Part shown: positions 14,029 through 56,324 of the stretch, piece after piece
Numbering within the stretch: position 1 is the stretch's first letter
Layout: each line of letters starts with the position of its first letter
Origin: Aliiroseovarius sp. Z3
GTDB lineage: Bacteria; Pseudomonadota; Alphaproteobacteria; Rhodobacterales; Rhodobacteraceae
Length of the DNA: 64,000 nt
Direction: 5' to 3'
Assembly (NCBI RefSeq): GCF_029105185.1
Contig: NZ_JAFMZK010000003.1
Coordinates: 310,001 to 374,000 of the forward strand
Program-made: the position numbers and the translations under genes
The notes under the pieces: model-generated
Database searches by the model: none
What the model was told of the DNA's origin: nothing
What the model saw: only the letters and a program-made list of their open reading frames with translations

Positions 14029-14034
14029 GGAATT

Positions 14035-14068: not shown

Positions 14069-14115
14069 GATCCATCCTTTATGGTCACGCCAAACGCGCG
14101 TTACCGGAGGATAGA

Positions 14116-14904: not shown

Positions 14905-14958
14905 AACCGGTGGGGCAGGGGGCATATAAGCCTCAAGGAATTTGAAGGAGCTTGAGCA

Positions 14959-30903: not shown

Positions 30904-31278
30904 ATGCTGAAGGGAAGTTGCCTGTGTGGCGCGATCAAGTTTGAAACCGCAGCCCCTCCGCAGGGGGTGTCGATGTGCCACTGCGGTCAGTGCCGCAAAC
31001 AATCCGGTGGCGTATGGTCATCCGCCTATGTGCCGGAGCGAGAGTTGCATATCGAAGGCGAAGTGAATTGGTTTGCGTCGAGCGAAACCGCCAAGCGGGG
31101 CAGTTGCGCCACTTGCGGATCGTTCCTGTTCTGGAAAGCCAATGACGAGGACACGATCAGCTTCTCGTTAGGTGCGGTTGACGGGCCAACGGGGCTGACG
31201 CTGGAAAAGCACATCTTTGTCGCGGACAAAGGTGATTATTACGACATCGCGGATGGCGTTCCGCAAAGCGACACCTAA
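30904..31278 (+). CDS. GFA-family zinc protein
   Basis: A 124-residue protein of the GFA (glutathione-dependent formaldehyde-activating/CENP-V) family. Zinc-binding cysteines are Cys6 and Cys8 (CLC), Cys25, Cys27 and Cys30 (CHCGQC), and Cys68 and Cys71 (CATC), the full family set. Founding members were reported to condense formaldehyde with glutathione, though most homologues are uncharacterised. Its place right before an oxidative N-demethylase-like gene makes a link to formaldehyde attractive, but this is inference from context. It starts 10 bases after the regulator stop. Confidence 0.88.
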   Translation: MLKGSCLCGAIKFETAAPPQGVSMCHCGQCRKQSGGVWSSAYVPERELHIEGEVNWFASSETAKRGSCATCGSFLFWKANDEDTISFSLGAVDGPTGLTLEKHIFVADKGDYYDIADGVPQSDT

Positions 31279-31300
31279 CCCTGAAATGACGGAGCTTGCT

Positions 31301-34802: not shown

Positions 34803-37250
34803 ATGAGCCTTCCCAAACACGCCCGTGTCGTCATCATCGGTGGCGGCGTCATCGGATGTTCCGTTGCCTATCACCTGTCCAAGCTGGGCTGGACAGATGT
34901 TGTCCTGCTGGAACGCAAGCAACTGACATCTGGCACCACGTGGCATGCGGCCGGGTTGATCGGCCAGTTGCGGTCCTCGTCGAACATGACCAAGCTCGCC
35001 AAGTATTCTGCCGACCTGTATCTGGGGCTTGAGGACGAAACCGGCGTCGCGACCGGTATGCGGCAGGTCGGATCGGTGTCGGTGGCGCTGACCGATGAAC
35101 GTCTGGAAGAGCTCTATCGCAGTGCTGCGATGGCGCGGGCCTTTGGTGTCCCGTGCGAGGAACTGTCACCCGCCGAGGTCAAGGAACGATATGAGCATAT
35201 CAACCTTGATGGTGTGACCGGGGGCATCTGGCTGCCCACCGACGGGCAGGCCGACCCGGCGAATATCGCGCTGGCCTTGGCGAAGGGCGCGCGGCAACGG
35301 GGGGCGTTGATCAAGGAACGCACCAAGGTGACGGGGGTCGTGCGGGACGGGCGCAAGGTCACGGGCGTGAATTGGGTGTCAGATGACGGGTCAGATCAGG
35401 GCACCATTGCCTGTGACATGATCGTCAACTGCGCGGGCATGTGGGGCCGCGAGGTTGGCAAAATGGCTGGTGTGAACGTGCCGCTGCACGCCTGCGAGCA
35501 TTTCTATATCGTGACCGAGGGGATCTCGGGCCTGACCCAAATGCCAGTGCTTCGGGTGCCGGATGAATGTGCCTATTACAAGGAAGATGCGGGCAAGATC
35601 CTGCTGGGGGCATTCGAACCCCACGCCAAGCCTTGGGCGATGGATGGCATTCCCGACACGTTTGAGTTCGACCAACTGCCCGAGGACTTCGACCATTTCG
35701 AACCGATCCTTGAAGCCGCCTGTAACCGGATGCCGATGCTGGCCGAGGCGGGCATCCACACCTTCTTCAACGGCCCCGAAAGTTTCACGCCCGACGATGC
35801 CTATCACCTTGGTCTTGCGCCCGAGATGGACAATGTCTGGGTTGCGGCGGGTTTCAACTCGATCGGCATTCAATCGGCGGGCGGGGCCGGGATGGCGCTG
35901 GCACAATGGATGGAGGACGGGCAGAAACCGTTTGACCTTGGCGATGTGGACATTAGCCGGATGCATCCGTTCCAAGGCAACCGGACCTATCTGTATGAGC
36001 GGTCCAAGGAAACGCTGGGCCTGCTTTATGCCGATCACTTCCCCTTCCGCCAGAAGGCCACGGCGCGCGGGGTGCGGCGCACGCCATTCCATCAGCATCT
36101 GTTGGATCAGGGTGCTGTCATGGGCGAAACCGCTGGGTGGGAACGTGCAAACTGGTTTGCCAATGAGGGGCAGGCGCGGGAATACGAATACACTTGGGGG
36201 CGCCCCAACTGGTTCGAAAACGCCGCTGCCGAACACAGGGCGGTGCGCGAGAATGTCGGCATGTATGACATGTCATCCTTCGGCAAGATCCGTGTCGAAG
36301 GCCCGGATGCCGAGGCGTTTTTGAACCGCGTCTGTGCGGCCGATATGTCGGTGCCCGTGGGCAAGATCGTCTATTCTCAGTTCCTGAACCCCCGCGCCGG
36401 GATCGAGGCGGATGTGACCGTCACGCGGCTGTCGGAAACCGCATACCTTGTGGTCACGCCATCGGGCACCCGACTGGCGGATGAGACGTGGATGCGTCGC
36501 CATGTGGGTGACGCGCGCGTGGTGATCACCGACGTCACGGCGGGCGAAGGCGTGCTGGCCGTGATGGGGCCAAATTCCCGTGCGCTTTTGCAGCGTGTCA
36601 GTCCGGCGGATTTCGGCAACGATGCAAACCCCTTCGGAACCGCGCAAGAGATCGAGCTGGGCATGGGTCTGGCCCGCGCTCATCGTGTGTCATACGTGGG
36701 CGAGTTGGGGTGGGAGATCTATGTCTCCTCGGACATGGCGGCCCACGCGTTCGAGACGATCTTTGATGCCGGGCAGGACATGGGGCTGACCCTTTGCGGG
36801 ATGCATATGATGGACAGTTGCCGGATCGAAAAGGCGTTCCGCCACTTCGGGCATGATATTACCTGCGAAGATCACGTGCTTGAGGCGGGTCTTGGCTTTG
36901 CGGTGAAAGCCGACAAGCCTGACTTCATCGGGCGCGACGCCGTTCTTGCCAAAAAAGAGGAAGGCCTGTCCCAGCGTCTGGTGCAGTTCAAGCTGACCGA
37001 CCCGAAACCCTTGCTTTATCACAACGAACCATTGATCCGTGATGGTGAGATCGTGGGATACCTTAGTTCTGGCGGCTACGGGCATCATCTGGGGGCTGCC
37101 ATTGGTATGGGGTATGTGCCCTGCAAGGGCGAAAGCGCAGCAGAGGTTCTGGCATCAAGCTATGAAATCGACGTGGCAGGCACGCGGGTAAAGGCCGATG
37201 CATCGCTGAAGCCGATGTATGATCCGACATCTGAGCGCGTGAGGATGTGA
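34803..37250 (+). CDS. Dimethylglycine/sarcosine dehydrogenase-like flavoprotein (copy B)
   Basis: An 815-residue paralogue of copy A with the same domain order: DAO (GGGVIG at 13-18), FAO_M, GCV_T and GCV_T C-terminal domain. The covalent-flavin histidine position is His48 in TSGTTWHAAG. The sequence is clearly diverged from copy A throughout, so it is not a recent duplication, and a different methylated amine is likely. It lies 89 bases after the GlxA-like regulator and ends in a hairpin. No dedicated transporter genes are adjacent. Confidence 0.9.
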   Translation: MSLPKHARVVIIGGGVIGCSVAYHLSKLGWTDVVLLERKQLTSGTTWHAAGLIGQLRSSSNMTKLAKYSADLYLGLEDETGVATGMRQVGSVSVALTDERLEELYRSAAMARAFGVPCEELSPAEVKERYEHINLDGVTGGIWLPTDGQADPANIALALAKGARQRGALIKERTKVTGVVRDGRKVTGVNWVSDDGSDQGTIACDMIVNCAGMWGREVGKMAGVNVPLHACEHFYIVTEGISGLTQMPVLRVPDECAYYKEDAGKILLGAFEPHAKPWAMDGIPDTFEFDQLPEDFDHFEPILEAACNRMPMLAEAGIHTFFNGPESFTPDDAYHLGLAPEMDNVWVAAGFNSIGIQSAGGAGMALAQWMEDGQKPFDLGDVDISRMHPFQGNRTYLYERSKETLGLLYADHFPFRQKATARGVRRTPFHQHLLDQGAVMGETAGWERANWFANEGQAREYEYTWGRPNWFENAAAEHRAVRENVGMYDMSSFGKIRVEGPDAEAFLNRVCAADMSVPVGKIVYSQFLNPRAGIEADVTVTRLSETAYLVVTPSGTRLADETWMRRHVGDARVVITDVTAGEGVLAVMGPNSRALLQRVSPADFGNDANPFGTAQEIELGMGLARAHRVSYVGELGWEIYVSSDMAAHAFETIFDAGQDMGLTLCGMHMMDSCRIEKAFRHFGHDITCEDHVLEAGLGFAVKADKPDFIGRDAVLAKKEEGLSQRLVQFKLTDPKPLLYHNEPLIRDGEIVGYLSSGGYGHHLGAAIGMGYVPCKGESAAEVLASSYEIDVAGTRVKADASLKPMYDPTSERVRM

Positions 37251-40415: not shown

Positions 40416-41213
40416 CTATGCGCTGCGCCGTTGGCGCCATCCAAAAAGATTCAGCACGGCAAAGAGGATCGCCGCAACGCAAACGATGGAAGGGCCTGCA
40501 GGCGTATCGAACACATATGCGCCCTGGAGACCAGCAACGGCCGAGATTGCCCCAATGGCCGCGGCGATCAGAGCCATGGATTCGGGGGTCCGGGCAAGGC
40601 CTCTTGCCGCCGCTGCGGGGATGATAAGCATGGCGGCGATCAACAAGACGCCGACGACCTTGATGGCAACGGCGACAGTGATGGCGAGCGACAGGGTCAG
40701 GATCAGTTGCTCGCGTTTCGGGTTCAACCCGCTCGCATAGGCCAGTTCTTCGTTGAGCGTCGAAGTCAGAAGAGCCGACCAGCGCCAGAGGATCAGCGCG
40801 ACCACCAGCGCCGCGCCGCCCCAGATCACCACCAGGTCGGTTCTCGACACGGCCAGGATGTCGCCGAAGAGATATGCCATGAGGTCGATCCGGATACCCG
40901 ACAGGAACGAAACCGCCACCAGACCGAAGGCGAGCGCGGAATGGGCCAGCACACCCAAGAGGGTGTCCATCGCATAGCCACGCCCGGCAAGAAGCGTCAC
41001 CGTGAAGGCCATGATCAACGCAACGGCCATGGCGCCCGCAAAGATTGACATCTGAAGCGCGAGTGACAAGGCAATGCCCAGGATCGCCGCATGCGCCGTG
41101 GCGTCTCCGAAATAGGCCATCCGCCGCCAGACCACGAAACAGCCAAGGGGTGCTGCCGCAAGGGCGACACCGATCCCTGCAAGAGTGGCGCGGGTCATGA
41201 AATCGTCAAGCAT
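40416..41213 (-). CDS. znuB: Zinc ABC transporter permease ZnuB
   Basis: A 265-residue inner-membrane permease of the ABC-3 family with about seven or eight helices, forming the zinc channel with ZnuC. Typical segments are APLGCFVVWRRMAYFGDATAHAAILG near the N-terminus and VGVLLIAAMLIIPAAAARGLA. Its ATG shares a base with the znuC stop (TGATG). Last gene of zur-znuC-znuB, reading away from znuA. Confidence 0.93.
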   Translation of the reverse strand: MLDDFMTRATLAGIGVALAAAPLGCFVVWRRMAYFGDATAHAAILGIALSLALQMSIFAGAMAVALIMAFTVTLLAGRGYAMDTLLGVLAHSALAFGLVAVSFLSGIRIDLMAYLFGDILAVSRTDLVVIWGGAALVVALILWRWSALLTSTLNEELAYASGLNPKREQLILTLSLAITVAVAIKVVGVLLIAAMLIIPAAAARGLARTPESMALIAAAIGAISAVAGLQGAYVFDTPAGPSIVCVAAILFAVLNLFGWRQRRSA

Positions 41214-41956
41214 CAGTCCGCCTCTCCATGGGCTTGCGGGTGGTCATGATCGTGGCCGTGATCGTGCTCGTGCCGATAGAGCGCCAGGGCGCCCCCCGTG
41301 CCTGTGCCAAACAGCGCACGGTATTCGGGCGCAGAGGCAACCACCGCCGGCGTGCCTTCGCAACAGACGTGACCGTTCAGGCAGATGACCCGGTCGGACG
41401 CGCTCATGACCACATGCAACTCATGGCTGATCATCAGCACAGCACAGCCGGTGTCGCGGCGCACGGTTTCGATTTGCTGGTAAAATGCCGCAGATCCGCG
41501 CTGATCGAGACCTTGGGTGGCTTCGTCCAGCAACAAGACGTCGGGTTTGTTGATCAAGGCCCGCGCCAGCAACACCCGTTGAAACTGGCCGCCCGAAAGC
41601 TGCGACATCTGCCGGGTCAGAAGGTCCGGCACGCCTGCCGATTCCAGGGCTGCTTTGCAGGCCGTGCGCGGAATTCGGTCCGCCAGTCGTAGGAAACGTT
41701 CCACGGTGATCGGCAGGGTCTGGTCGATATGCAGCCGCTGCGGCACATAGCCGATCTTGAGACCGGGTTTCAGGGTGATCTCGCCGCTGGAAGGACGCGT
41801 TGCCCCGATGATGGCGCGCAGTAGGCTGGTCTTGCCTGACCCGTTCGGGCCGACGATGGTCACGATTTCCCCCGGATCCAAATCCAGGGAAACATGGCGC
41901 AGCACTGTGTTGGCGCCGTAGGTGACGCTGAGGTCTTTTACGGAAATCAGGCTCAT
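41213..41956 (-). CDS. znuC: Zinc ABC transporter ATPase ZnuC
   Basis: A 247-residue ABC ATPase powering high-affinity zinc uptake. Walker A is GPNGSGKT at residues 36-43, the signature is LSGGQFQRV, and the Walker B is VLLLDEATQGLD. The C-terminal tail is histidine-rich (HEHDHGHDHDHPQAHG), typical of ZnuC and probably a zinc sensor or store. The start at 41956 overlaps the zur stop (ATGA) and the stop overlaps znuB, so the three are translationally coupled. Confidence 0.94.
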   Translation of the reverse strand: MSLISVKDLSVTYGANTVLRHVSLDLDPGEIVTIVGPNGSGKTSLLRAIIGATRPSSGEITLKPGLKIGYVPQRLHIDQTLPITVERFLRLADRIPRTACKAALESAGVPDLLTRQMSQLSGGQFQRVLLARALINKPDVLLLDEATQGLDQRGSAAFYQQIETVRRDTGCAVLMISHELHVVMSASDRVICLNGHVCCEGTPAVVASAPEYRALFGTGTGGALALYRHEHDHGHDHDHPQAHGEAD

Positions 41957-42450
41957 GCGTCGGCCTTTTCCTTGCACTTCGGGCAGATCCCTTCGGCCTC
42001 GACCACTGTCCGTTCGATTTGAAACCCGGCCGCGCGCGCGGCGGCGTCAAGGGCCCCGTTGGCCAGCGTGGATTGCGTCTCGGCCACAGCGTCACACAAG
42101 CGGCAGATCATGAAAGCAGGGGCATGCGACTTTCCCGGATGCGCACAGGCCACAAATGCATTCAGCCTTTCGATTTTGTGTACAAAGCCATGTTCGACCA
42201 AGAAATCGAGCGCGCGATAGGCCACGGGGGGCTGCGATCCAAAGCCGGCTTCTTTCAATAGGTCGAGGATTGCATAAGCCCCGAGCGCGCGGTGTTCTTG
42301 CAGAAGAAACTCCAGAACCTTGCGCCGGACCGGGGTCAGGCGCAGCCCTTTGTCGGCGCATTGCGCCTCGGCGGCATCCAGCGACGAGCTGACACATGCC
42401 GCGTGGTCATGTGCCTTGAAACCGATCGGACCTGCATTTTCGGCAGACAT
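41953..42450 (-). CDS. zur: Zinc uptake regulator Zur (Fur family)
   Basis: A 165-residue Fur-family repressor that binds DNA when loaded with zinc. Residues about 30-85 form the winged helix with LRLTPVRRKVLEFLLQEHRALGAYAIL. The dimerisation domain has FVACAHPGKSHAPAFMICRLC and the C-terminal CPKCKEK, supplying the structural zinc cysteines (two CxxC pairs). The start at 42450 follows AGAGAGG by 8 bases; an ATG 21 bases upstream is possible. Co-located with znuCB, so it is probably autoregulated through the shared region with znuA. Confidence 0.92.
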   Translation of the reverse strand: MSAENAGPIGFKAHDHAACVSSSLDAAEAQCADKGLRLTPVRRKVLEFLLQEHRALGAYAILDLLKEAGFGSQPPVAYRALDFLVEHGFVHKIERLNAFVACAHPGKSHAPAFMICRLCDAVAETQSTLANGALDAAARAAGFQIERTVVEAEGICPKCKEKADA

Positions 42451-42476
42451 CTCCTGCGCCTCTCTTGTCATGTTAT

Positions 42477-42491
42477 TCCATATCATATATG
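42477..42491. promoter_or_regulatory. AT-rich inverted repeat in the zur-znuA gap
   Basis: CCATAT and ATATGG flank a 3-base centre, 27 bases upstream of the zur start. It could be a second Zur site or just AT-rich promoter sequence. Confidence 0.35.
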
Positions 42492-45782: not shown

Positions 45783-46163
45783 CTAACCCTCATCAAGCAC
45801 TTTGCGCGCAACGCGGAAGCACTCCAACGCCTGCGGTACGCCGCAATAGATGCCGATCACGTGAATGATCGCGCGGATTTCTTCCTTTGTGACGCCGTTG
45901 CTGATGGCCCCGCGGCAGTGGATTTCCCATTCGTGCATCTTGCCCAAGGCGCCGATCATCGACAGGTTCATCATCGAGCGGGTCTTGGCGTCGATCACAT
46001 CGTCGCCCCAGCCAAAGCCCCAGCACCACGCGGTCATGGCCTCTTGAAATGGGCGGGTGAAGTCATCTGCTGCTGCAAGGTTCTTCTCTACATATTCCCC
46101 GCCAAGCGTCGCCTTGCGGTGCTCAAGCCCCTTCAGGAACAGGTCTTCGTCAAAGGTGCTCAT
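45783..46163 (-). CDS. Carboxymuconolactone decarboxylase family protein
   Basis: A 126-residue AhpD-like fold protein. The core DAKTRSMMNLSMIGALGKMHEWEIHCRGAISNGVTKEEI matches CMD proteins, and the second half IIHVIGIYCGVPQALECFRVARKVL the conserved helices. It has one Cys in the HC and one in YC position but no AhpD CxxC pair, so peroxidase partner activity is unlikely; a decarboxylase or lactone-acting role is possible. Its start shares a base with the aldehyde dehydrogenase stop, so it is the last gene of rpiR-Rieske-aldehyde dehydrogenase-CMD. Confidence 0.85.
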   Translation of the reverse strand: MSTFDEDLFLKGLEHRKATLGGEYVEKNLAAADDFTRPFQEAMTAWCWGFGWGDDVIDAKTRSMMNLSMIGALGKMHEWEIHCRGAISNGVTKEEIRAIIHVIGIYCGVPQALECFRVARKVLDEG

Positions 46164-47611
46164 CACTTACCCCTTAGCTTTATCGCGACGTTTTTCGTCT
46201 GCACATAGTTCCACAACGCCTCGCGCCCCTTCTCGCGACCATAGCCGGATTTGCCATAGCCACCGAAGGGCGTTTCGACCCCGCCCGCGTACCATTCGTT
46301 CACAAAAACCTGACCCGCGCGCAACTGGCGGGCGGCGGATGTGGCGCGGTCGAGGTCGCGAGTGAAGACGCCGCCGACCAGCCCATAGGGCGTGCCGTTG
46401 GCAATGCGGATTGCCTCGTCATCGTCGCGGAATTTCAGCACGGACAGGACCGGGCCAAAGACTTCGTCATTGGCGATGGTCATGTCGGGGGTGACACCCG
46501 TTAGGATGGTCGGCTCAAGAAACGCGCCGGGGATGTTCATCTTGCGGCCGCCAGTTGCAACAGTGGCCCCCTCCGCTTCTGCCGCTTGGATCATGCCCGC
46601 CGCGCGATCCCGCTGCGCGTCCGAGACCATCGCGCCCATCGTTGCCCCGAACACTGGCTGTTCGATGCCGGGTTTGATGGTCAGGGACTGGGCGACACCG
46701 ACCATGCGCCCGACAAGTTCATCATGGATGCTGTCATGCACGATCACGCGGCTCATGGCGGAACACACCTGACCCGCGTTGAAATAGATGCCCCAGCGGA
46801 CGTCATTTTCGAACGCATCAAGATCGGCGTCGTCGTGGACGATCGCGGCTGATTTCCCGCCAAGTTCCAGCACGCAAGGCACGACATTTTGGGCCGCAGC
46901 GGTCGCGATGGCAACGCCCGTGGGAACCGATCCGGTAAAGACGATCTGGTTCACCTCGGGATGGGCCGACAGGGCGGCCCCAGCTTCGTGGCCCAGACCG
47001 CAGAGGATGTTCACCGCGCCATTGGGCAGGCCAACCGCATCGGCCGCATCGGCGAACCATGCGTTGCTGAGCGGGGTGAGTTCCGGCGTCTTGATCACGC
47101 AAGCGTTGCCGGTGGCAAGTGCTGCCGACAGTGACCGCGCGGTCATTTCCACTGGATAGTTCCATGGGATGATCTGCGCCGAGACGCCATAGGGTTCATG
47201 GGTCGTGAAGTCGAAATACCCTTTTCCCAGTGGGATCGAGCGGCCTTCGACGGTTTCGGCCTGATTGCCGTAATACTCGAAATAACGCGCCGCGCCGTCG
47301 ACTTCGATCCGGGCTTCCCATAGCGGCTTGCCCTGTTCCAGCGTCAGAACCTCGGCGATCTCGTCAATGTGGTCCAGCAGATAGCGGCCCATCGCCTGCA
47401 CCATGCGCCCACGTTCGACCGGGCGCAGATCGGACAAGGCGCCCGACAGATGCACACGGCGCGCAGCCATAACGGCGCGGTCCACGTCGCCCGCATCGGC
47501 CAGCGCCTGTTCGGCCAGCTTTTCGCCGGTGCCCGGGTTGATCACGTCGATCCGCCCCGCGCCACCGTCGACCCACGCGCCATCAATGTAGTTTTGCCAA
47601 TAGGTCTTCAT
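46163..47611 (-). CDS. NAD-dependent aldehyde dehydrogenase (betaine-aldehyde type)
   Basis: A 482-residue aldehyde dehydrogenase superfamily member. Catalytic Cys283 is in GQVCSAMSR, general base Glu249 in LELGGKSA, and the NAD-binding Asn in IIPWNYPVEM and FTGSVPTG strands are present. Closest in feel to betaine-aldehyde and gamma-aminobutyraldehyde dehydrogenases, which fits an operon acting on N-methylated compounds; substrate is not determinable. It lies 36 bases downstream of the Rieske oxygenase gene. Confidence 0.9.
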   Translation of the reverse strand: MKTYWQNYIDGAWVDGGAGRIDVINPGTGEKLAEQALADAGDVDRAVMAARRVHLSGALSDLRPVERGRMVQAMGRYLLDHIDEIAEVLTLEQGKPLWEARIEVDGAARYFEYYGNQAETVEGRSIPLGKGYFDFTTHEPYGVSAQIIPWNYPVEMTARSLSAALATGNACVIKTPELTPLSNAWFADAADAVGLPNGAVNILCGLGHEAGAALSAHPEVNQIVFTGSVPTGVAIATAAAQNVVPCVLELGGKSAAIVHDDADLDAFENDVRWGIYFNAGQVCSAMSRVIVHDSIHDELVGRMVGVAQSLTIKPGIEQPVFGATMGAMVSDAQRDRAAGMIQAAEAEGATVATGGRKMNIPGAFLEPTILTGVTPDMTIANDEVFGPVLSVLKFRDDDEAIRIANGTPYGLVGGVFTRDLDRATSAARQLRAGQVFVNEWYAGGVETPFGGYGKSGYGREKGREALWNYVQTKNVAIKLRGK

Positions 47612-47647
47612 CTTGGGTTTCGTCCTGTTTGGGCGCGTTGCGCGTTC

Positions 47648-48742
47648 CTATTCCGGGCCATCCACAGCCTCGCGCATCCATTGATGCAACGCGGCAATCG
47701 AGTGTTCCGAACGGACACCGCAAGCCGGATCCAACACCAGAGGGCCGGGGCGATAGCCGCGAGACTTCAGCCCGCGCTGCACACTTTCCACCAGCCGGAT
47801 ATCCTCTTCAACCGTGGTGTCGCGATCCTGCACGGCTAGCCCACGGATCACGTCGCTTTCGGCGCCCTCGGGCGTGTACCAGCCGCGCCAGACGGTGCAG
47901 TTTTCAGGCCCATCCGCACGCCAGTGATAGGTGTTCAACACGTTGCCCGGATAGCATTGAAACGAGAACATCGGCCAGAGGAACCAGCTTTGATATTCGC
48001 CCGCATGGGGGACCGAAAGGTCGACGGGATAGGTCATCTTGTCCATCGACTGGCATTCGGTCGTGTGGCGCAGAACATACCCGCCGCCCGCATCCGGTTG
48101 GATGTCATAGGTCTCGGGTTTGATCACACCCTCGGCAAAGGTCGCGTGGTTGATGGGGCAGTGATAGCATTCCGAGTAATTCTCGACCGAGACCTTCCAG
48201 TTGCAATTCTCGGGCACTTCGACCCATTCCAGCGGGGCGAGGTCATCGACATTGGGCACGAAAGCCGCGATTTCTTCCCGCACGCCGGGGAACCACGCGT
48301 CCATCGGGGCGGCATCGTCATCCAGATTGACGAAGAGGAAGCCATGGAAATCCTCGGTCCGGACTTCGGTCAGGCAGATTTCCGAGCGGTCAAAACCCGG
48401 AACGGACTTGATGTTCGGACCCGCCCGCAGATGGCCGGTCAGCTCATAGGTCCAGGCATGATAGGGGCAGACCACCACGCGGGTGTTGCCGGTGCCCGTG
48501 ACCATCTCATGCGCGCGGTGTTGGCAGACGTTATAGAAGGTGCGGATCACCTGATCCCGGCCACGGATTGAAAACAGGTTCTGGCCTGCGATCTCGAAGG
48601 TGAAATAGTCGCCCACATTCGCCAGCTGGCTGGCATGACCCGCAAATTGCCACGTCCGCGCAAGCAGGCCGGACAGTTCGTGCGCATAGATGTTCGGGTC
48701 GGTGTAATAGCGCGCGGCCAAAGACCTGATGGGTTCGGTCAT
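47648..48742 (-). CDS. Rieske non-heme iron oxygenase, alpha subunit (betaine/carnitine demethylase-like)
   Basis: A 364-residue ring-hydroxylating-type oxygenase. The Rieske [2Fe-2S] ligands are Cys73, His75, Cys92 and His95 (CQHRAHEM ... CPYHAW). The mononuclear iron site is in NYSECYHCPINH with His194 and His199, plus a late acidic ligand in the VEEDIRLVESVQ region. ENYSECYHCPINH-type sequences are typical of choline monooxygenase, glycine-betaine monooxygenase GbcA and stachydrine/hydroxyproline-betaine demethylases rather than of arene dioxygenases. No reductase gene of the GbcB type is adjacent, so electrons must come from elsewhere. Its ATG overlaps the rpiR stop. Confidence 0.9.
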   Translation of the reverse strand: MTEPIRSLAARYYTDPNIYAHELSGLLARTWQFAGHASQLANVGDYFTFEIAGQNLFSIRGRDQVIRTFYNVCQHRAHEMVTGTGNTRVVVCPYHAWTYELTGHLRAGPNIKSVPGFDRSEICLTEVRTEDFHGFLFVNLDDDAAPMDAWFPGVREEIAAFVPNVDDLAPLEWVEVPENCNWKVSVENYSECYHCPINHATFAEGVIKPETYDIQPDAGGGYVLRHTTECQSMDKMTYPVDLSVPHAGEYQSWFLWPMFSFQCYPGNVLNTYHWRADGPENCTVWRGWYTPEGAESDVIRGLAVQDRDTTVEEDIRLVESVQRGLKSRGYRPGPLVLDPACGVRSEHSIAALHQWMREAVDGPE

Positions 48743-49626
48743 GTCTTCTCCTCGTGATACAGCCCCAACTGGTGGCGACGGTTGTGGAATTTCTCGACCC
48801 GCTCGACGATCTCGTCGCTGGCGACGGCGATGACGAAGGACAAGAGCGTCTCGAGCAGCGCGATGATGCTGACCGAGGACGGGAAGAATTGCGGCGTGTC
48901 GACCGAGACCACGAAGCCATGATCGGCCAGACGCAGGATCGGGCTGGCGGGGCTGTCGGACAGGGCGACGATGACCATGCCTTGTTCGCGCGCGATTTCG
49001 ACGGCTTTGACCACCTCGGACCGATAGGGTTTGCAGGTGATCGCGATCAGTACGTCGCTTTCATCTGCCCATGCCAGATCATCGACAGGGGTCGAGCCCG
49101 GACGCGGTATGGCGTGAAATTCTTTCATTCCAGTCGAGGCCAGATAGGTGAAATTGCGCGCGATCGAGTTGTTGACGCCGACGCCAAGGGTGAACACGTT
49201 GCGCGAGGACCAGATTGCCTCGGCTGCGATCTTCAGATCGTCGGTCGAGATGCCAGCGAAAGTCTCTTCGACATTGCGCAGCACGTCCTGCACCATGTCG
49301 GCATACAGCCCACCCAGATCGTCAGATTTGCGAATGTCCTGAAGCCAGCGCGCGCGGTCGGGGAAGTCCGCGGCCCCGCGCCGGATGGCATCGCGGAAGG
49401 GCGCGCGGAAATCCTCGTAACCCTCAAACCCCACCTGCCGCGCCATGCGCACCACAGTGTTGGGTTTCACATTCGCAGCCTCGGCGATTTCGCGCACGGT
49501 CGACACGCCCACATCGCGGGGGTTTTCCAAGACGTAAGTGGCCGCCTTGCGTGCCTCGGGCGTCAGCGCGGGCAGCTCATCGGCCAGACGCTCGAGAATC
49601 GTGTTTGATACATTTGTCCCATTCAT
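48739..49626 (-). CDS. MurR/RpiR-family transcriptional regulator
   Basis: A 295-residue regulator with an N-terminal RpiR helix-turn-helix (about 1-80; VREIAEAANVKPNTVVRMARQVGFEGYEDF) and a C-terminal SIS domain (about 125-260; ESDVLIAITCKPYRSEVVKAVEIAREQG). SIS domains usually bind phosphosugars, but several members control amino-acid or amine catabolism. It is the first gene of the minus-strand operon and starts 66 bases from the divergent flavoprotein gene, so it most likely controls both directions. Its start is at 49626; the frame further upstream overlaps the divergent gene. Confidence 0.88.
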   Translation of the reverse strand: MNGTNVSNTILERLADELPALTPEARKAATYVLENPRDVGVSTVREIAEAANVKPNTVVRMARQVGFEGYEDFRAPFRDAIRRGAADFPDRARWLQDIRKSDDLGGLYADMVQDVLRNVEETFAGISTDDLKIAAEAIWSSRNVFTLGVGVNNSIARNFTYLASTGMKEFHAIPRPGSTPVDDLAWADESDVLIAITCKPYRSEVVKAVEIAREQGMVIVALSDSPASPILRLADHGFVVSVDTPQFFPSSVSIIALLETLLSFVIAVASDEIVERVEKFHNRRHQLGLYHEEKT

Positions 49627-49659
49627 GATTGACGATGGTATTTTTGTTTGCTTAGCCTG

Positions 49660-49679
49660 TCGAGAGGAAAACGACTCGA
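49660..49679. promoter_or_regulatory. Candidate operator in the divergent rpiR / flavoprotein gap
   Basis: TCGAG (49660-49664) and CTCGA (49675-49679) form a short inverted repeat with a 10-base spacer in the 66-base divergent region, between a TTGACG (49629-49634) that could serve as a -35 element and the GTG start at 49693. Weak on its own; supported by position only. Confidence 0.4.
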
Positions 49680-49692
49680 AAAGGAATGTGTC

Positions 49693-52161
49693 GTGGCTGT
49701 TGAGTTTCCCTCCCACGCACGCGTGGTCATCGTCGGCGGAGGCGTCATGGGCGTCGGGCTGGCCTATCATCTTGGCCATGAAGGCTGGGGTGAAGATACG
49801 GTGCTGCTTGAGAAGGCCGAGCTGACCTCGGGCAGCACGTGGCATGCTGCCGGGCAGATCACACATTCGACCTCGTCCTTCGGGCTGGGGAAATGTGTGG
49901 ATTACAACATCGGCCTCTATTCCGGCGGGTTGGAGGCGGAAACCGGCCAGCCCGTGACATGGCATGGCTGCGGGTCGTTTCGCCTTGCCTATACGGAAGA
50001 CGAAATGGACTGGCTGCGCCATACGCTGTCGGTGGGTTGCGCGTTGGGGTTCAACATCGAATTGGTCGGACCCGAGAAGGTGTCCGAGCTGCATCCTTTC
50101 TATAACCTCGACGGTGTTGTGGGCGCGCTGCATACGCCCGATGACGGCCACGTCGACCCGACCAACGTCACCATGGCGATGGCATCTGGCGCGCGTCAAA
50201 CGGGCGTGCGGATCATCCGTCAGTGTCGCGCGACCAACATCACGCAGTTACCTTCCGGCGAATGGCAGGTCGAGACCGAGAAAGGTACCATCACCTGCGA
50301 GCATGTCGTCAATGCGGGCGGCACCTATGCCCGGCAGATGGGCGAATGGTCGGGGCTGCAACTGCCTATGACCTCGATGACGCACCATTATTTTGTGACG
50401 GACGAGGTGCCCGAATTCCAGAACCTAGACACCGAACTGCCGGTCATTCGCGACGACAAGAAAGTGTCCGGTTACATTCGCATGGAGCAAAAGAAAGGCC
50501 TGATCGGGATTTACGAGAAAGAGAACCCGAACTCGGTCTGGCATGATGAATGCCCTTGGGAATACGAGAACTGGTTGTTTGACGCCGATTACGACCGCGT
50601 CATGCCGTATCTGGAAGAAAGCCTGAACCGGATGCCGATCTTTGCCGAGCTGGGCATTCAGCGTGATGTGCATGGCGCGATCAGCCACCCGCCAGATGGC
50701 AACCCTCTGATCGGTCCGGCGCCCGGCGTGCGCAATTATTGGTGCTGTTGCGGTACGCAGATCGGTATCGGCTGGGGCCCCGGCCTGACGCGTGAACTGG
50801 CGCGGTGGATGGTGCATGGGGCGGCAGACATCTCGATGCGCGAGTTCGATCCGCGCCGGTTTGGCAGCTATGCCACGAAGGATTGGCAAGTGGTGAAGGC
50901 CGAAGAGGACTACTGCCTGCGCCACGAAATCCCCTTCCCGCATTTCAACCGCTTGGCGGGGCGTCCCATCAAACCGTCGCCCTTGCACGAGCTCATGAAA
51001 TCCAAAGGCGCCGTGCATGAAGAAGTTTATGGTTTCGAGCGCCCGCGTTTCTTCGCCAAGGGGATTGAGCAGCGCGACCATTACTCCTTCAACCGCTCCC
51101 CCGTCGACGACATGGTCGCGGACGAGGTGAAAGCGGTGCGCGAGCGCGTTGGCATCATGGATGTGACCGCCTTCACCAAGGTGCTGGTCGAGGGGCCGGA
51201 TGCCTATGCGCTGTTGGACCGTCTGACCGCGAACCGGATGCCGCAGAAATACCCCTCAAGTAGCGAAGCGATAGGGGATAAATCCGGCTCCATTACCCTG
51301 ACCCACATGCTGAACTGCGCAGGTCGGATCGAGCTGGAAACGACCATCGTGCGGATGGCCGAGGACAACTTCTATCTGGTCTGCGCCGCCTTCTTTGAAC
51401 AGCGTCTGCTGGACCACCTGAACCATCAGCGCGCAGAAGAAGACGTGACGATCACCGCCCTTTCCTCGGACTGGAGCGCCCTGTCGCTGAACGGGCCGAA
51501 GTCGCGGGACGTGCTGGCCGCCTGCACCGATGCCGATCTGTCGAACGCGGGCTTTCGCTGGCTGTCTGCGCAGGAAATCAACGTCGCGGGCCACAAAATC
51601 TGGGCCTTCCGCATGTCCTATGCGGGCGAGCTTGGCTGGGAGTTCCACATGCCCCACGCCGCCTGTCTGGATGTCTATTCCGCGCTTTGGGAAGCGGGCG
51701 AGGCGCACGGCATTGCCGATTACGGCAGCTTCGCGATGAACGCGATGCGGATGGAGAAGGGCTTTAAGGGCGCAGGTGAATTGACCAACGAAGTCACATT
51801 GGCCGAGGCCGACGTGCTGCGTTTTGCCCGGACGGACAAGGACTATCTGGGCCGTGATAAGACCCTGAACACCGACCTGCCGTGGGTCTGCACCTATCTG
51901 GAAATCGAGCCCGACGGCAAGGCGGATGGCCATGGCGGAGAGGCGGTGATGCTGGACGGGCAGGTGGTTGGCTCCACGGCGTCTGTGGCCTTCGGACCAA
52001 CGGTCGGGAAAGTCCTGGCCTTCGCCTATATCAAACCCGACGCCGCCACCCCCGGCACGGCGCTTGAGGTCGTGATCCACGGCACCCCACGCGCGGCCCG
52101 CGTGCTGGGCGAACCCGCCTATGATCCCGAAAGCCTGAAGCCAAGGATGGACGCGTCATGA
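49693..52161 (+). CDS. Dimethylglycine/sarcosine dehydrogenase-like flavoprotein (copy C)
   Basis: An 822-residue member of the same DAO-FAO_M-GCV_T family as copies A and B. GGGVMG at residues 15-20 binds FAD and TSGSTWHAAG places His51 at the covalent-flavin position. The following stretch ITHSTSSFGLGKCVDYNIGLYSG differs from A and B, suggesting another substrate, possibly the secondary or tertiary amine left by the Rieske demethylase. The start is GTG at 49693 with AAGGA 7 bases upstream. Its stop overlaps the enolase-superfamily gene (ATGA). Confidence 0.9.
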   Translation: MAVEFPSHARVVIVGGGVMGVGLAYHLGHEGWGEDTVLLEKAELTSGSTWHAAGQITHSTSSFGLGKCVDYNIGLYSGGLEAETGQPVTWHGCGSFRLAYTEDEMDWLRHTLSVGCALGFNIELVGPEKVSELHPFYNLDGVVGALHTPDDGHVDPTNVTMAMASGARQTGVRIIRQCRATNITQLPSGEWQVETEKGTITCEHVVNAGGTYARQMGEWSGLQLPMTSMTHHYFVTDEVPEFQNLDTELPVIRDDKKVSGYIRMEQKKGLIGIYEKENPNSVWHDECPWEYENWLFDADYDRVMPYLEESLNRMPIFAELGIQRDVHGAISHPPDGNPLIGPAPGVRNYWCCCGTQIGIGWGPGLTRELARWMVHGAADISMREFDPRRFGSYATKDWQVVKAEEDYCLRHEIPFPHFNRLAGRPIKPSPLHELMKSKGAVHEEVYGFERPRFFAKGIEQRDHYSFNRSPVDDMVADEVKAVRERVGIMDVTAFTKVLVEGPDAYALLDRLTANRMPQKYPSSSEAIGDKSGSITLTHMLNCAGRIELETTIVRMAEDNFYLVCAAFFEQRLLDHLNHQRAEEDVTITALSSDWSALSLNGPKSRDVLAACTDADLSNAGFRWLSAQEINVAGHKIWAFRMSYAGELGWEFHMPHAACLDVYSALWEAGEAHGIADYGSFAMNAMRMEKGFKGAGELTNEVTLAEADVLRFARTDKDYLGRDKTLNTDLPWVCTYLEIEPDGKADGHGGEAVMLDGQVVGSTASVAFGPTVGKVLAFAYIKPDAATPGTALEVVIHGTPRAARVLGEPAYDPESLKPRMDAS

Positions 52162-53261
52162 AGGTCTCTCGCATTGCCCTGTGGTCGGTCGATCTGACCA
52201 GCCATGAAACCTACTACATGGCCGAGGGCAAAACCTGTGACACGGTCAAAAGTCATGTCCTGTGTCTGGAAACTGACACCGGTCTAAAAGGCTGGGGCGA
52301 GGTCTGCCCGATCCCCCATTACCTGCCAGCTTTTGCGGGCGGCGTCCCAAGCGCGGTTCAGGAAATGGCGCCGGAAATTCTTGGCGTCTCGCCCTTCGGT
52401 GTGGACGCGCCCATGCGCAAGCTGGATGCGTTTCTGCAAGGGCATTTCCACGCGAAATCCATCGTGGACATGGCGCTGTGGGATCTGTTTGGGAAAGCGA
52501 CCGGGCAGCCCCTTTACGCGCTTCTTGGGGGCCGCACCCGCACAGACATGCCGCTCTATCACTCGATCACCTGCATCGCGCCGGACGACATGGCGCGGAT
52601 CGCGCGCGAGGCCTATGCCACGGGCATCCGGCAGATTCAGGTCAAGCTGGGCGCAGATAGCGATTGGCAGGCCGATGCCGAGCGTCTGGCCAAAGTGCGC
52701 GAGGCGGTGGGCGATGGCCCTCTGGTCTATGGCGATTGGAATTGCGGGGCGACCAAGCTACAGGCCACGCGGACAGGCCGCGCAGTGGCTCATCTGGACG
52801 TGATGCTGGAACAGCCCTGCAAAACGCTGGAAGATTGCGCCGCGGTTCGGCAAGCAACGGGCCTGCCCATGAAGATCGACGAAGGCGCCTTCGATCTGGC
52901 GTCGCTCATTCGCGCGCATGAGCTTGGCGTGCTGGACGCGGTGGCGCTGAAACTGTCGAAATTTGGCGGACTGTCCGCCATGCGTCGCGCGCGTGACCTG
53001 ACGGTGCATCTGGGGGCGGAAATCTGCGCTGAATGCACTTGGGGATCGGACATCGTGACCGCCGCGTCGCTGCATTTCGCGGCCTCGACCCCGCATGGCG
53101 CACTGCTGAATACCTGCGATCTGTCGTCCTATGTCGGCCCGCGCATTGCGCCCGATTGCCCGACCCGCAAGGATGGACGTATCGCCCCGCCGGAACGTCC
53201 TGGGCTGGGCGTCACACCCGACCTGAACATCCTTGGAGCCCCCATTCTTGAACTGGAGTGA
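52158..53261 (+). CDS. Enolase-superfamily enzyme, hydroxyproline-betaine epimerase-like
   Basis: A 367-residue mandelate-racemase/muconate-lactonising subgroup enzyme: N-terminal capping domain (1-125) and a barrel. Two catalytic lysines face each other, Lys163 in QVKLG and Lys265 in ALKLSKFGG. Metal ligands are Asp193 (GDWN), Glu219 (EQP) and Asp241. HFHAKSIVDMALWDL and ECTWGSDIVTAASLHFA resemble 4-hydroxyproline-betaine 2-epimerase (HpbD) and cis-3-hydroxyproline dehydratase relatives, which act by removing an alpha proton between these two lysines. Its neighbours, a Rieske demethylase and an N-demethylating flavoprotein, fit that kind of substrate. ATGA overlap with copy C. Confidence 0.85.
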   Translation: MKVSRIALWSVDLTSHETYYMAEGKTCDTVKSHVLCLETDTGLKGWGEVCPIPHYLPAFAGGVPSAVQEMAPEILGVSPFGVDAPMRKLDAFLQGHFHAKSIVDMALWDLFGKATGQPLYALLGGRTRTDMPLYHSITCIAPDDMARIAREAYATGIRQIQVKLGADSDWQADAERLAKVREAVGDGPLVYGDWNCGATKLQATRTGRAVAHLDVMLEQPCKTLEDCAAVRQATGLPMKIDEGAFDLASLIRAHELGVLDAVALKLSKFGGLSAMRRARDLTVHLGAEICAECTWGSDIVTAASLHFAASTPHGALLNTCDLSSYVGPRIAPDCPTRKDGRIAPPERPGLGVTPDLNILGAPILELE

Positions 53262-53264
53262 CCC

Positions 53265-54542
53265 ATGCAGAAACTGACCACTCAAGCCGAATGGATCGCC
53301 CGCGCCCGCGCCGTCTTGCCCGCCGGGGGGTTTGGAAATTTCGATCCCCGCATTGTCATCGCGCGCGGGGAAGGCAGCCATGTCTGGGACGAGGATGGGA
53401 ACGAGTACATTGACTATCTGATCGGCTCTGGCCCGATGCTTCTGGGTCACGGCCACCCAGAGGTGATGGAGGCGGTGCTGGAACAGCTCCCCCTCGGCAT
53501 GACCTTTTTTGCGAACAACGCCAAGGGGATTGAACTGGCCGAGGCGATTGTTGATGCGGTGCCCTGCTGTGAACAGGTCAGGTTTGTGGCTTCGGGCGGC
53601 GAGGCGGACATGTACGCGATCCGCCTTGCCCGCGCCTATACCGGGCGCGATAAGATCCTGAAATTCGAAGGCGGCTATCACGGAATGAGCGCCGAGGCGC
53701 AGATGAGCCTTGCGCCCGAAGCCCGCGTCAACTTTCCGCAAGCCGTGCCGGACAGCGCAGGCATCCCGCAAGGCGTTGCCGACCAGATGCTCATCGCGCC
53801 GTTCAACGATCTGGCTGCGGTCGAGGCGCTGTTGAGCGAACACAATGATGTCGCTGCCATCATCGTGGAACCCCTGCAGCGGATCATTCCCGCCGACCCG
53901 GGCTATCTGCAGGGGTTGCGTGATCTGTGTGACGAGCACAGTGTCCTCCTGATTTTCGACGAGATCGTCACCGGCTTCCGGCTGGCCTATGGCGGCGCGC
54001 AGGAGCGCTATGGCGTGACGCCCGACATCTGCACTTTGGGCAAGATCATTGGCGGCGGCTTCCCACTTGCCGCCCTTGGGGCGAGTGCCGAAATCATGCA
54101 GCATTTCGACAAGTCCATCGTCGGTGCGGACAAATGGCTGATGCAGTTGGGCACCCTGTCCGGGAACCCGATTGCGGCGGCAGCCGGGTTGAAGACGATG
54201 GAAATCCTGCGCCGCGAGGGCAGTTATGACCGCCTTCGTGCTATCGGGAAAGAGCTGCAAGACATGCAAAGCGAGGCGTTGAGCGCGGCCGGTATCCCAC
54301 ATCAGATATGTGGGGATGAAACCCTGTTCGACATCTTCTTCACAACCGGCGCCTGCCGGGATTATCGGAGTGCCAAACACGATGACCCGCAACGCAACGT
54401 GACTTACAACGCGACGCTACGAAATCACGGGATCTTCAAATCGCCGGGCAAGCTTTACCCGTCGCTGGCAATATCCGAAATGGACCTCGAGCTAACAAAA
54501 AAAGCGGTTCATGTGGCGGTGCGTTCGATTTGCGCCGAGTAG
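53265..54542 (+). CDS. Class-III aminotransferase (glutamate-1-semialdehyde-mutase-like)
   Basis: A 425-residue PLP enzyme of the ornithine/GSA aminotransferase subgroup. The Schiff-base Lys260 is in CTLGKIIGGGFPLAA, Asp232 in LIFDEIVTGFRL holds the pyridine nitrogen, and VASGGEADMYAIRLARAYTG binds phosphate. It is close to glutamate-1-semialdehyde 2,1-aminomutase but its place in a catabolic operon, 3 bases after the enolase-superfamily gene, argues against haem synthesis. It may transaminate an amino acid or amino-aldehyde formed after demethylation. Confidence 0.88.
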   Translation: MQKLTTQAEWIARARAVLPAGGFGNFDPRIVIARGEGSHVWDEDGNEYIDYLIGSGPMLLGHGHPEVMEAVLEQLPLGMTFFANNAKGIELAEAIVDAVPCCEQVRFVASGGEADMYAIRLARAYTGRDKILKFEGGYHGMSAEAQMSLAPEARVNFPQAVPDSAGIPQGVADQMLIAPFNDLAAVEALLSEHNDVAAIIVEPLQRIIPADPGYLQGLRDLCDEHSVLLIFDEIVTGFRLAYGGAQERYGVTPDICTLGKIIGGGFPLAALGASAEIMQHFDKSIVGADKWLMQLGTLSGNPIAAAAGLKTMEILRREGSYDRLRAIGKELQDMQSEALSAAGIPHQICGDETLFDIFFTTGACRDYRSAKHDDPQRNVTYNATLRNHGIFKSPGKLYPSLAISEMDLELTKKAVHVAVRSICAE

Positions 54543-54693: not shown

Positions 54694-56133
54694 TCAGTCG
54701 TTCGACCAGCCCGATACGGCTTTGACCTCAAGGAAATCCTCGATCCCCAGAATGCCGCCTTCGCGGCCGTTGCCGGACTGTTTATAGCCCCCGAAGGGCG
54801 AACCTGCGGCGCGGGAAGTGCCGTTCATTTCGACCATGCCTGACCGCATCTGGCGGGCCACGCGGTTGGCGCGGGTGCCGTCCTGTGTCTGGATGTAGTT
54901 CGTCAGGCCATAGACGGTGTCATTGGCGATCTCGACGGCCTCTTCCTCGGTGTCGAAGGGGATCATCGCCATCACCGGGCCGAAGATTTCTTCGCGGGCG
55001 ATGGTCATGTCATTGGACACATCCGCAAAGATCGTCGGCTTGACGAAATAGCCCTTGTTCAGGCCTTCGGGTCGCCCGGTGCCGCCCGCGATCAGACGCG
55101 CGCCTTCGTCGATGCCGACCTGGATCAGGTCCTGGATCTTGTTCCACTGAACCTCGCTGACCACGGGGCCGATATGACGGCCTTCCTGGCTGGCGGGTCC
55201 GACTTGCACCTTCTCGGCGGCTTCGCGCGCGGTCTCGATGGCCTGATCATAAACGCCGCGCTGCACCAGCATCCGCGACGGCGCGTTACAGCTTTGGCCG
55301 GTGTTCTGCATCATGTGCATCACACCGCGTTTCACGGCCTTCTCGTCGGCATCGTCAAAGATGATGTTGGCACCCTTGCCACCCAGCTCAAGGCTGACAC
55401 GTTTCAGGGTGTCAGCGGCCGCCTTGGAAATGGCGATACCGGCGCGGGTCGAACCGGTGAAGCTGACCATATCCACGTCCGGGTGGGTGGACAGTTGCGT
55501 GCCGACGCCCATGCCGTCGCCGTTCACCATGTTATAGACACCGGCGGGAAAGCCCGCTTCGTCCACGATTTCGCTCCAGACGATCGACGACAGGGGCGCG
55601 ATTTCGGATGGTTTCAACACCATGGTGCAGCCTGCCGCCATCGCCGCCACGCATTTCAGCGTCACCTGGTTCATCGGCCAGTTCCATGGCGTGATCATCG
55701 CGCAGACGCCGATGGGTTCATACAGCAGACGATCATTCGGCGCATGCGCGCCCAGCATCTTGTCGAACTCGAAATCCTTGAAGGCGGTGATGAAGTTCTG
55801 GATGTGCCATGTGCCCGACCCGACCTGCGAGGTGCGGGCCAGATCAATCGGGGCGCCCATTTCCATGCTCATCGCCTCGGCCAGATCGCCCGAGCGTTTC
55901 TGATAGACCTTCAGAAGGGTTTCGATCAGGGCCAGCCGATCCTCTTTCTTCGAAAAGCCCCAGTCGGCGAAGGCGGCCTTGGCGGCGGCGACGGCGGCAT
56001 CGGTATCCGCCTGATCGCCCAGCGAAATGACCGCGCAGACCTCTTCGGTCGACGGGTCGATGACAGTCATGTCCTTGGGTGCTGCGGGTGCCACCCATTG
56101 GCCGTTGATATAGAAGTCGCGTTTCTCGATCAT
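54694..56133 (-). CDS. Aldehyde dehydrogenase family protein
   Basis: A 479-residue aldehyde dehydrogenase. Catalytic Cys282 is in NTGQSCNAPSRM, Glu249 in LELGGKGA, and MITPWNWP carries the NAD-contacting Asn. The NTGQSCNAPSR signature belongs to a branch distinct from the betaine-aldehyde-type enzyme at 46-47 kb. The start at 56133 has AAGGAG 6 bases upstream; the frame extends further but without a ribosome site. Single gene, divergent from the peroxiredoxin gene. Confidence 0.9.
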   Translation of the reverse strand: MIEKRDFYINGQWVAPAAPKDMTVIDPSTEEVCAVISLGDQADTDAAVAAAKAAFADWGFSKKEDRLALIETLLKVYQKRSGDLAEAMSMEMGAPIDLARTSQVGSGTWHIQNFITAFKDFEFDKMLGAHAPNDRLLYEPIGVCAMITPWNWPMNQVTLKCVAAMAAGCTMVLKPSEIAPLSSIVWSEIVDEAGFPAGVYNMVNGDGMGVGTQLSTHPDVDMVSFTGSTRAGIAISKAAADTLKRVSLELGGKGANIIFDDADEKAVKRGVMHMMQNTGQSCNAPSRMLVQRGVYDQAIETAREAAEKVQVGPASQEGRHIGPVVSEVQWNKIQDLIQVGIDEGARLIAGGTGRPEGLNKGYFVKPTIFADVSNDMTIAREEIFGPVMAMIPFDTEEEAVEIANDTVYGLTNYIQTQDGTRANRVARQMRSGMVEMNGTSRAAGSPFGGYKQSGNGREGGILGIEDFLEVKAVSGWSND

Positions 56134-56324
56134 TCCAGTCTCCTTGGTCGGATTTGCGTGCACTCTGGCACCGGGACAGGTCCGGCGCAACCCATGGAAA
56201 CAAAATTTGATCAAATTTTTCAGGTGCGACGATTTGGTTGCGTTTGATCCCGCTCCGGGTCTTTAAAAAGGGGAAGCAGATTGTATCTCTAGAACAACCA
56301 AACACCCCGGACAGGAGAAACCAA

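Follow-up and report, generated by a model that had tools for sequence, protein, structure and literature searches.

Carnitine monooxygenase (CntA) is a Rieske oxygenase that cleaves a C-N bond instead of taking off a methyl group, and 4-hydroxyproline betaine is degraded with the help of HpbD and partner enzymes. Also relevant here is the dddQ locus of the roseobacters. According to the excerpted text of PMC5395565, dddP and dddQ are the most abundant bacterial dimethylsulfoniopropionate (DMSP) lyase genes in ocean metagenomes, DddQ has DMSP lyase activity in vitro and DMSP induces dddQ. The same excerpts report that dddQ mutants release less dimethyl sulfide (DMS), by 97% in Ruegeria pomeroyi and 20% in Roseovarius nubinhibens, and they give a Km of 22 mM for DddQ acting on DMSP, so it is fair to ask whether DMSP is the main natural substrate. 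Two adjacent genes of R. nubinhibens, dddQ1 and dddQ2, are likely co-transcribed with a gene for an MDR dehydrogenase, ISM_14095, which failed to restore acrylate tolerance (PMC3338564, excerpt). We examined a window of 64,000 nucleotides from Aliiroseovarius sp. Z3 (contig NZ_JAFMZK010000003.1, positions 310,001 to 374,000), an organism with a 3.5 Mb genome, and found in it a divergent cluster of seven genes, the roseobacter dddQ locus in its minimal form. The cluster, built around a Rieske oxygenase and a dimethylglycine-dehydrogenase-like flavoprotein, probably encodes the core enzymes for the breakdown of a betaine-type carboxylate, meaning a quaternary amine with an acidic hydrogen alpha to its carboxylate.

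Each of the seven genes named in the original prediction was an open reading frame with a match to the named family, and the coordinates shifted only slightly:

45783 to 46166, minus strand: CMD-family protein, PcaC-like, 127 amino acids (PF02627, 66.5 bits)
46163 to 47611, minus strand: aldehyde dehydrogenase, betaine-aldehyde-dehydrogenase-like, 482 amino acids, a variable member (PF00171, 516.8 bits)
47648 to 48742, minus strand: Rieske oxygenase alpha subunit, CntA type, 364 amino acids (PDB 6y8j, 214 bits)
48739 to 49626, minus strand: RpiR-family regulator (HTH_6 and SIS), 295 amino acids (PF01418 and PF01380 above cut-off, tested on 48739 to 49599)
49627 to 49692, no strand: divergent promoter region, 66 bases separating two divergent starts
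49693 to 52161, plus strand: dimethylglycine-dehydrogenase-like flavoprotein, 822 amino acids (DAO, FAO_M, GCV_T and GCV_T_C, all four above the Pfam cut-off)
52158 to 53261, plus strand: enolase-A, muconate-lactonizing subgroup, 367 amino acids (PDB 4mgg, 275 bits)
53265 to 54542, plus strand: class-III aminotransferase, glutamate-semialdehyde-aminomutase-like, 425 amino acids (PF00202, 217 bits)

The predicted divergent organization was likewise borne out: after a small correction RpiR starts with an ATG at position 49626, the GTG at 49693 is the preferred start of the flavoprotein, and the promoter region lies between them. Overlaps of 4 bases join the CMD and aldehyde dehydrogenase genes, the Rieske and RpiR genes, and the flavoprotein and enolase-A genes. 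A block ahead of RpiR, conserved in an alignment of 63 rows that included the window, fits a putative promoter with the -35/-10 pair TCGACA-N17-TACCAT.

Neighborhood analysis of relatives, the check proposed with the original prediction, recovered the same core in the majority of loci. We searched named genomes with the Rieske protein and kept the best 80 of 102 stretches encoding a relative, as loci of up to 21 kb. Genes were first labeled by any best match covering at least 35% of the reference and then recounted at 45% identity or above (33% for DddQ). The recount lowered the numbers for the aldehyde dehydrogenase (22 to 19), a second aminotransferase (12 to 10) and proteins resembling arylmalonate decarboxylase (28 to 27), sulfotransferases (26 to 25) and FrhB (9 to 7), whereas the other main counts did not change; all counts miss genes past contig ends. 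The loci came mainly from Ruegeria, Aliiroseovarius, Shimia, Roseovarius and their relatives; a few were from other alphaproteobacteria, two from gammaproteobacterial metagenome-assembled genomes (MAGs) and one from a record labeled Oceanobacillus. The Rieske protein was 97% identical to that of Aliiroseovarius marinus (L042) and the flavoprotein 96% identical to its nearest named relative. RpiR and the flavoprotein were each present in 74 of the 80 loci, CMD in 70, enolase-A in 67, the window-type aminotransferase in 52 and the aldehyde dehydrogenase, the variable member, in 19. The Rieske, RpiR, flavoprotein, enolase-A and CMD genes stood together in 59 loci, and together with a class-III aminotransferase in 57; the overlap of 4 bases between RpiR and Rieske genes was kept in 66 of 74 junctions. 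Outside the cluster, the most frequent clear flanking families, phenylacetate genes in our reading, reached 13 of the 80 loci, so conservation of the core goes well past what local synteny would give. The grouping is far beyond chance. One locus, L115, places a roseobacter-type core (Rieske 74%, flavoprotein 69% identical) in a record with a Firmicute name, Oceanobacillus sp. HTM 045, and may reflect either a mislabeled assembly or transfer.

Genes of the DMSP-lyase family (DddQ) accompanied this core in 49 of the 80 loci. All 55 such genes were on the flavoprotein strand, and 54 lay within 1.8 kb of the flavoprotein gene. Pfam confirmed the family on two of them (PF16867, 77.6 and 69 bits), and seven cupin and tyrosine positions that we take as functional were invariant in 54 of 54 rows. 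An alcohol dehydrogenase was present in 45 of the 49 loci and one to three kinds of further enolase in 43; DddQ and dehydrogenase genes overlapped by 4 bases in 37 of 44 cases, as did DddQ genes standing directly after the flavoprotein in four of five. The locus of R. nubinhibens ISM (L103, cut at its end) encodes a flavoprotein, RpiR and Rieske protein 80, 77 and 78% identical to those of the window and, as in the DddQ-bearing loci, shares the core order and orientation of the window; its DddQ-like protein matches solved DMSP lyases. Beside its dddQ genes (positions 556 to 4249 of the locus), three further full-length enolases matched PDB 2qdd, 2rdx and 2pce over the whole chain with 834 to 852 bits, which implies that they are probably identical or near-identical to these solved proteins, all of which carry generic molecule names (mandelate racemase/muconate lactonizing enzyme). 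In an independent sample of 295 genomes of the bacterial family, 52 encoded a Rieske relative at E ≤ 1e-80. PF16867 matches were found in 33 of these 52, and in at least 15 a distance of 3.5 to 6.9 kb separated the PF16867 and Rieske genes. PF16867 occurred in 144 of the 295 genomes, 111 of which had no cluster-type Rieske gene, and the dddQ link therefore holds for part of the PF16867 family only. A PF16867 search for a DMSP-lyase-family gene gave no match in the host genome.

We infer the following pathway for the core. The CntA-type Rieske oxygenase would attack the quaternary nitrogen, and the flavoprotein would then move further N-methyl groups onto tetrahydrofolate. Enolase-A may abstract the alpha-proton, leading to epimerization or elimination of a beta-group, and the class-III aminotransferase would take off the freed non-alpha amino group and leave an aldehyde. 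The aldehyde dehydrogenase and the CMD protein could oxidize or decarboxylate the product, and RpiR would control the divergent promoters. The additional genes of relatives (DddQ, alcohol dehydrogenase and further enolases) may feed stereoisomers or analogs into the same core. We favor betaine demethylation, which gives every core gene a role; the co-occurrence of six core genes in 57 of the 80 loci and the invariance of the tested catalytic residues of the Rieske protein, enolase-A and aminotransferase support it.

The structural relatives of the two demethylation candidates are consistent with these roles. The closest solved relative of the Rieske protein was carnitine monooxygenase (6y8j), followed by 3vca, which we take to be Stc2, and 4qup (both 121 bits). 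The original prediction of an oxygenase of betaine-demethylase type was therefore half right, the nearest solved relative being a C-N cleaver and not a remover of methyl groups. The protein has the Rieske cluster ligands, bridging glutamate and 2-His-1-Asp motif of CntA, and is the sole Ring_hydroxyl_A (PF00848) match in the host genome; its Glu191, His194, His199 and Asp314 did not vary among the 80 aligned rows, the window being one of them. The flavoprotein matched the dimethylglycine dehydrogenases 4pab, 5l46 and 4p9s over nearly its whole length (474 to 478 bits), far above its score with a DMSP demethylase model (49.7 bits), and joins FAD oxidoreductase and folate-binding GcvT domains in one chain, as dimethylglycine dehydrogenase does. 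A CntA-type Rieske protein next to a full dimethylglycine dehydrogenase architecture supports the logic of stepwise N-demethylation proposed earlier.

The remaining enzymes resemble, and stay below the cut-offs of, several curated families. Against solved structures, enolase-A ranked 4mgg first (275 bits), followed by 2rdx (237 bits), 2qdd, 3eez and 2ps2, with 4e8g sixth (195 bits) and 2pmq seventh (180 bits); we take 4mgg to be a cis-3-hydroxyproline dehydratase and 4e8g and 2pmq to be hydroxyproline-betaine epimerases (HpbD). Its catalytic lysines K163 and K265 and metal ligands D193, E218 and D241 were invariant in 66 of 66 aligned rows, and the host genome has no second enolase of this branch, the next match scoring 58 bits at 28% identity. 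The aminotransferase was nearest to 2cfb (325 bits; beta-transaminases, 156 to 165 bits), with K260 invariant in 52 of 52 rows, and missed the cut-offs for glutamate-1-semialdehyde aminomutase (TIGR00713, 364.6 versus 527.3 bits; PRK00062, narrowly, 381.8 versus 398 bits). A different class-III aminotransferase is present in 10 of the 80 loci (a representative scored 537 bits with PRK06062, above its cut-off of 472), which would favor general transamination of a non-alpha amine over the special aminomutase reaction. The aldehyde dehydrogenase and CMD protein likewise fell below the models for betaine-aldehyde dehydrogenase (TIGR01804, 425.9 versus 668.6 bits) and PcaC (TIGR02425, 115.1 versus 155.7 bits). 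Further, the Rieske protein did not reach the GbcA model (NF058607, 151.6 bits versus 670) nor enolase-A its best NCBIfam match, the cis-3-hydroxyproline dehydratase model (324.1 bits versus 500). Neither the curated glycine-betaine pathway nor the curated hydroxyproline-betaine pathway therefore describes the cluster, as the original prediction had held.

The section between the flavoprotein and enolase-A genes differs even among close relatives: two loci (L043 and L044) have DddQ there, two others (L042 and L049) an alcohol dehydrogenase and enolase-B, and the window nothing. In a quick flavoprotein tree with many weak branches (73 rows, 71 of them with a DddQ state; 25 of 70 inner branches open; no shuffle control), the presence of DddQ required at least 12 changes. 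DddQ was absent from 13 of the 57 loci with the six-gene core, and four of these (L073, L084, L095 and L107), like the window, also had no dehydrogenase or enolases B to D; four more loci without accessory genes had an incomplete core (L045 and L115 without CMD; L072 and L088 without RpiR and aminotransferase). Since accessory genes vary among close relatives while the core stays, the pattern suggests that they are interchangeable entry modules, and the gene set of the window is close to the irreducible core. Up to four enolases were present in a locus of the named genomes (L103 and L112). Other accessory proteins were arylmalonate-decarboxylase-like (27 of 80 loci; 25.9 bits, just at the cut-off), sulfotransferase-like (25 of 80) and FrhB-like (7 of 80), and the last is a possible electron donor of the Rieske oxygenase.

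Three loci showed unusual arrangements of these genes. L131 (16 to 19899) is the most expanded version seen among the loci compared, with genes for a BCCT transporter, aldehyde dehydrogenase, FrhB-like and DsbA-like proteins, flavoprotein, RpiR, Rieske protein, sulfatase, arylmalonate-decarboxylase-like and sulfotransferase-like proteins, alcohol dehydrogenase, DddQ, a small cupin and five enolase-type reading frames. In L119, from an Oceanospirillaceae MAG (a gammaproteobacterium), genes for arylmalonate-decarboxylase-like, sulfotransferase-like and FrhB-like proteins lead directly into the Rieske gene (6906 to 11092), a hint that a module was transferred and that FrhB could serve as electron donor. 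L072 (Ruegeria sp. R13_0, 2066 to 15111) has a reduced core of enolase-A, flavoprotein, Rieske and CMD genes, flanked by EutB/EutC-like genes on one side and a taurine-type ABC transporter on the other, an arrangement seen once and given no weight.

Transport genes bear on the substrate class. A BCCT-family transporter was part of the cluster in four distinct genomes, between the aldehyde dehydrogenase and CMD genes in L096, L079 and L135 and directly after the aldehyde dehydrogenase gene in L131 (PF02028, 504 bits). This linkage supports a betaine-like substrate without proving it, and BCCT proteins also carry DMSP. In other genomes, relatives of the transporter were found at other sites (37 of 295 at E ≤ 1e-200), and the host genome has only a relative of 38% identity. 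A BCCT match in L118 was excluded (31% identity, far from the core), and a TRAP transporter about 1.8 kb past the dehydrogenase gene of L132 was not used as evidence. In the window we saw no linked transporter besides the Zur-type zinc uptake genes.

Several observations weigh against a betaine demethylation pathway. The linked BCCT transporter was present in only 2 of the 80 named loci (and 2 of the 52 family genomes), other transporters having been checked at part of the loci. If the Rieske protein acted by C-N cleavage as CntA does, later demethylation could be unnecessary. No Rieske reductase linked to the cluster or of CntB type was found: the scanned part of the window genes held none of CntB type, and a genome search with PF00175 gave two matches only, which we read as probably PaaE-like and ferredoxin-reductase-like proteins. 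The lyase activity of DddQ, its induction by DMSP and the loss of DMS in R. pomeroyi would fit a sulfonium substrate. Finally, the substrate class is a prediction from gene content.

The alternative that survives best, improbable as we judge it, is a pathway of the hydroxyproline- or proline-betaine type, in which enolase-A would be the epimerase or dehydratase of a cyclic alpha-amino betaine that the Rieske protein and flavoprotein demethylate. Enolase-A and the R. nubinhibens enolases B, C and D all find their best NCBIfam match in the cis-3-hydroxyproline dehydratase model, yet their scores (324, 314, 396 and 305 bits) are below its cut-off, and the two presumed epimerases score lower than 4mgg against enolase-A. 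A proline-type gene is absent among the seven, and the class-III aminotransferases, arylmalonate-decarboxylase-like protein and CMD would have no evident place in such a pathway. The excerpted text of PMC5144071 does relate cis-3-hydroxyproline dehydratase to hydroxyproline betaine 2-epimerase and proline betaine racemase.

We consider unlikely a route resembling that of carnitine or gamma-butyrobetaine, with cleavage or demethylation by the Rieske protein, transamination of a gamma-amino acid and oxidation of the aldehyde. It would account for the nearest solved Rieske relative, for the BCCT transporter of a few loci and for a class-III aminotransferase and aldehyde dehydrogenase, which suit a gamma-amino acid; it leaves unexplained DddQ, CMD and the multiple enolases (up to four in L103 and L112, five frames in L131), and no CntB-type reductase was found in the host genome.

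About equally unlikely is a sulfonium pathway, in which the cluster would handle relatives of DMSP; DddQ would be its main enzyme, and the GcvT-fold flavoprotein would act as a demethylase. The frequency of DddQ-family genes and their invariant positions, the DMSP-carrying ability of BCCT transporters, and the induction and mutant phenotypes of dddQ fit this explanation. It is difficult to reconcile with the absence of DddQ from the window and from 13 of the 57 loci that have the six-gene core, with the preference of the flavoprotein for dimethylglycine dehydrogenase over DMSP demethylase models, and with an aminotransferase that would have no evident role for a nitrogen-free sulfonium; the failure of ISM_14095 to rescue acrylate tolerance, as excerpted from PMC3338564, also speaks against it. 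The remaining explanation, that the genes are chance neighbors with no shared function, takes some support from the zinc uptake and homogentisate genes on either side, which look related neither to one another nor to the cluster, but is hardly credible, as it is already contradicted by a core conserved in 57 of 80 loci beside flanking families reaching 13 and by the conserved gene overlaps.

Within the favored betaine reading, the candidate substrates differ in their standing. Homarine, one of the substrates named in the original prediction, is disfavored: the published pathway, a 2026 study cited in the excerpted text of PMC13390433, uses Mgd, which is absent among the seven genes. Excerpts of PMC12093977 name homarine in the reference list only. 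The seven-gene set has no pointer to the pyridine ring of trigonelline, for which no search was made. A more specific proposal concerns diacylglyceryl hydroxymethyl-trimethyl-beta-alanine (DGTA), an algal betaine lipid. The native substrate could be its head group, 2-(hydroxymethyl)-3-(trimethylammonio)propanoate, or the glyceryl ether of that group, and DddQ would then be primarily a lyase of this nitrogen analog of DMSP. We regard this as a long shot, chosen because the functional groups of the molecule match each gene family. The quaternary nitrogen would suit the Rieske protein and flavoprotein, the alpha-hydrogen and two beta-leaving groups the enolases and DddQ, the beta-amino group left after demethylation the class-III aminotransferase, and the primary alcohol the alcohol dehydrogenase; the aldehyde and malonate-type acid could be handled by the aldehyde dehydrogenase, CMD and arylmalonate-decarboxylase-like protein. 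The strong loss of DMS in the R. pomeroyi dddQ mutant (PMC5395565, excerpt) favors DMSP as a real substrate of DddQ at least in that organism.

The flanks of the cluster look unrelated to it. To the left are zinc uptake genes (40416 to 42486), which resemble a Zur-type locus, and CobW/DUF1826 genes; to the right are a second aldehyde dehydrogenase (54694 to 56136), a peroxiredoxin (named from its sequence) and homogentisate-type genes. We rejected the second aldehyde dehydrogenase as a cluster member, its label recurring in 1 of the 80 loci at 27% identity. About 10 kb from the cluster, two flavoproteins resembling dimethylglycine or sarcosine dehydrogenase (31217 to 33754 and 34803 to 37250, both plus strand) flank a GbdR-like AraC regulator (33751 to 34713, plus strand), and this is a putative second methylated-amine locus.

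In the open-licence literature, outside which most subscription journals lie and which was judged mostly at the level of titles, we found no substrate assignment for the N-demethylation core or the solved enolases. In the same literature, the PDB codes of the enolases returned texts that, judged by title, use these strings for other things, and dddQ together with Rieske in one text returned methanesulfonate work and nothing else. Lei et al. (2018) reportedly doubted that some DMSP-lyase-like cupins are true DMSP lyases, and that work may already describe the dddQ neighborhood. New in our analysis are the betaine-type catabolic cluster with a modular lyase and enolase section and the placement of DddQ-family genes beside a conserved N-demethylation core that also occurs without them. 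Part of the neighborhood is already known as the roseobacter dddQ cluster (PMC3338564, excerpt), which the original prediction had missed. Identification of the substrate would test what DddQ and three solved, generically named enolases evolved for, and would add a route by which marine bacteria gain carbon and nitrogen from betaines.

The window Rieske protein has in common with CntA (6y8j) a glutamate at the bridging position, two histidines, an aspartate and the C-terminal stretch LVESVQRGLKSRGYR; unlike CntA, it is accompanied by the flavoprotein and an enolase, and no CntB-type reductase was found for it. The flavoprotein shares all four domains and a near full-length match with dimethylglycine dehydrogenase (4pab, 5l46 and 4p9s), and differs in having three further full-length paralogs of 34 to 39% identity in the host genome. 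Enolase-A has its best family and structure match in cis-3-hydroxyproline dehydratase, with both lysines and the metal ligands kept, but scores below the cut-off and has conserved stretches of its own, such as CPIPHYLPA and GDWNCG. The 4-hydroxyproline-betaine pathway likewise combines a Rieske oxygenase, a dimethylglycine-dehydrogenase-like protein and an enolase-superfamily enzyme, whereas the window has a different enolase branch, a class-III aminotransferase, CMD and RpiR. A further comparison is with the R. nubinhibens dddQ cluster: L103 has the window core, two DddQ-family genes and an MDR-type dehydrogenase, which we take, by place and family, to be the published one, and the window carries this core without DddQ, the MDR-type dehydrogenase and enolases B to D.

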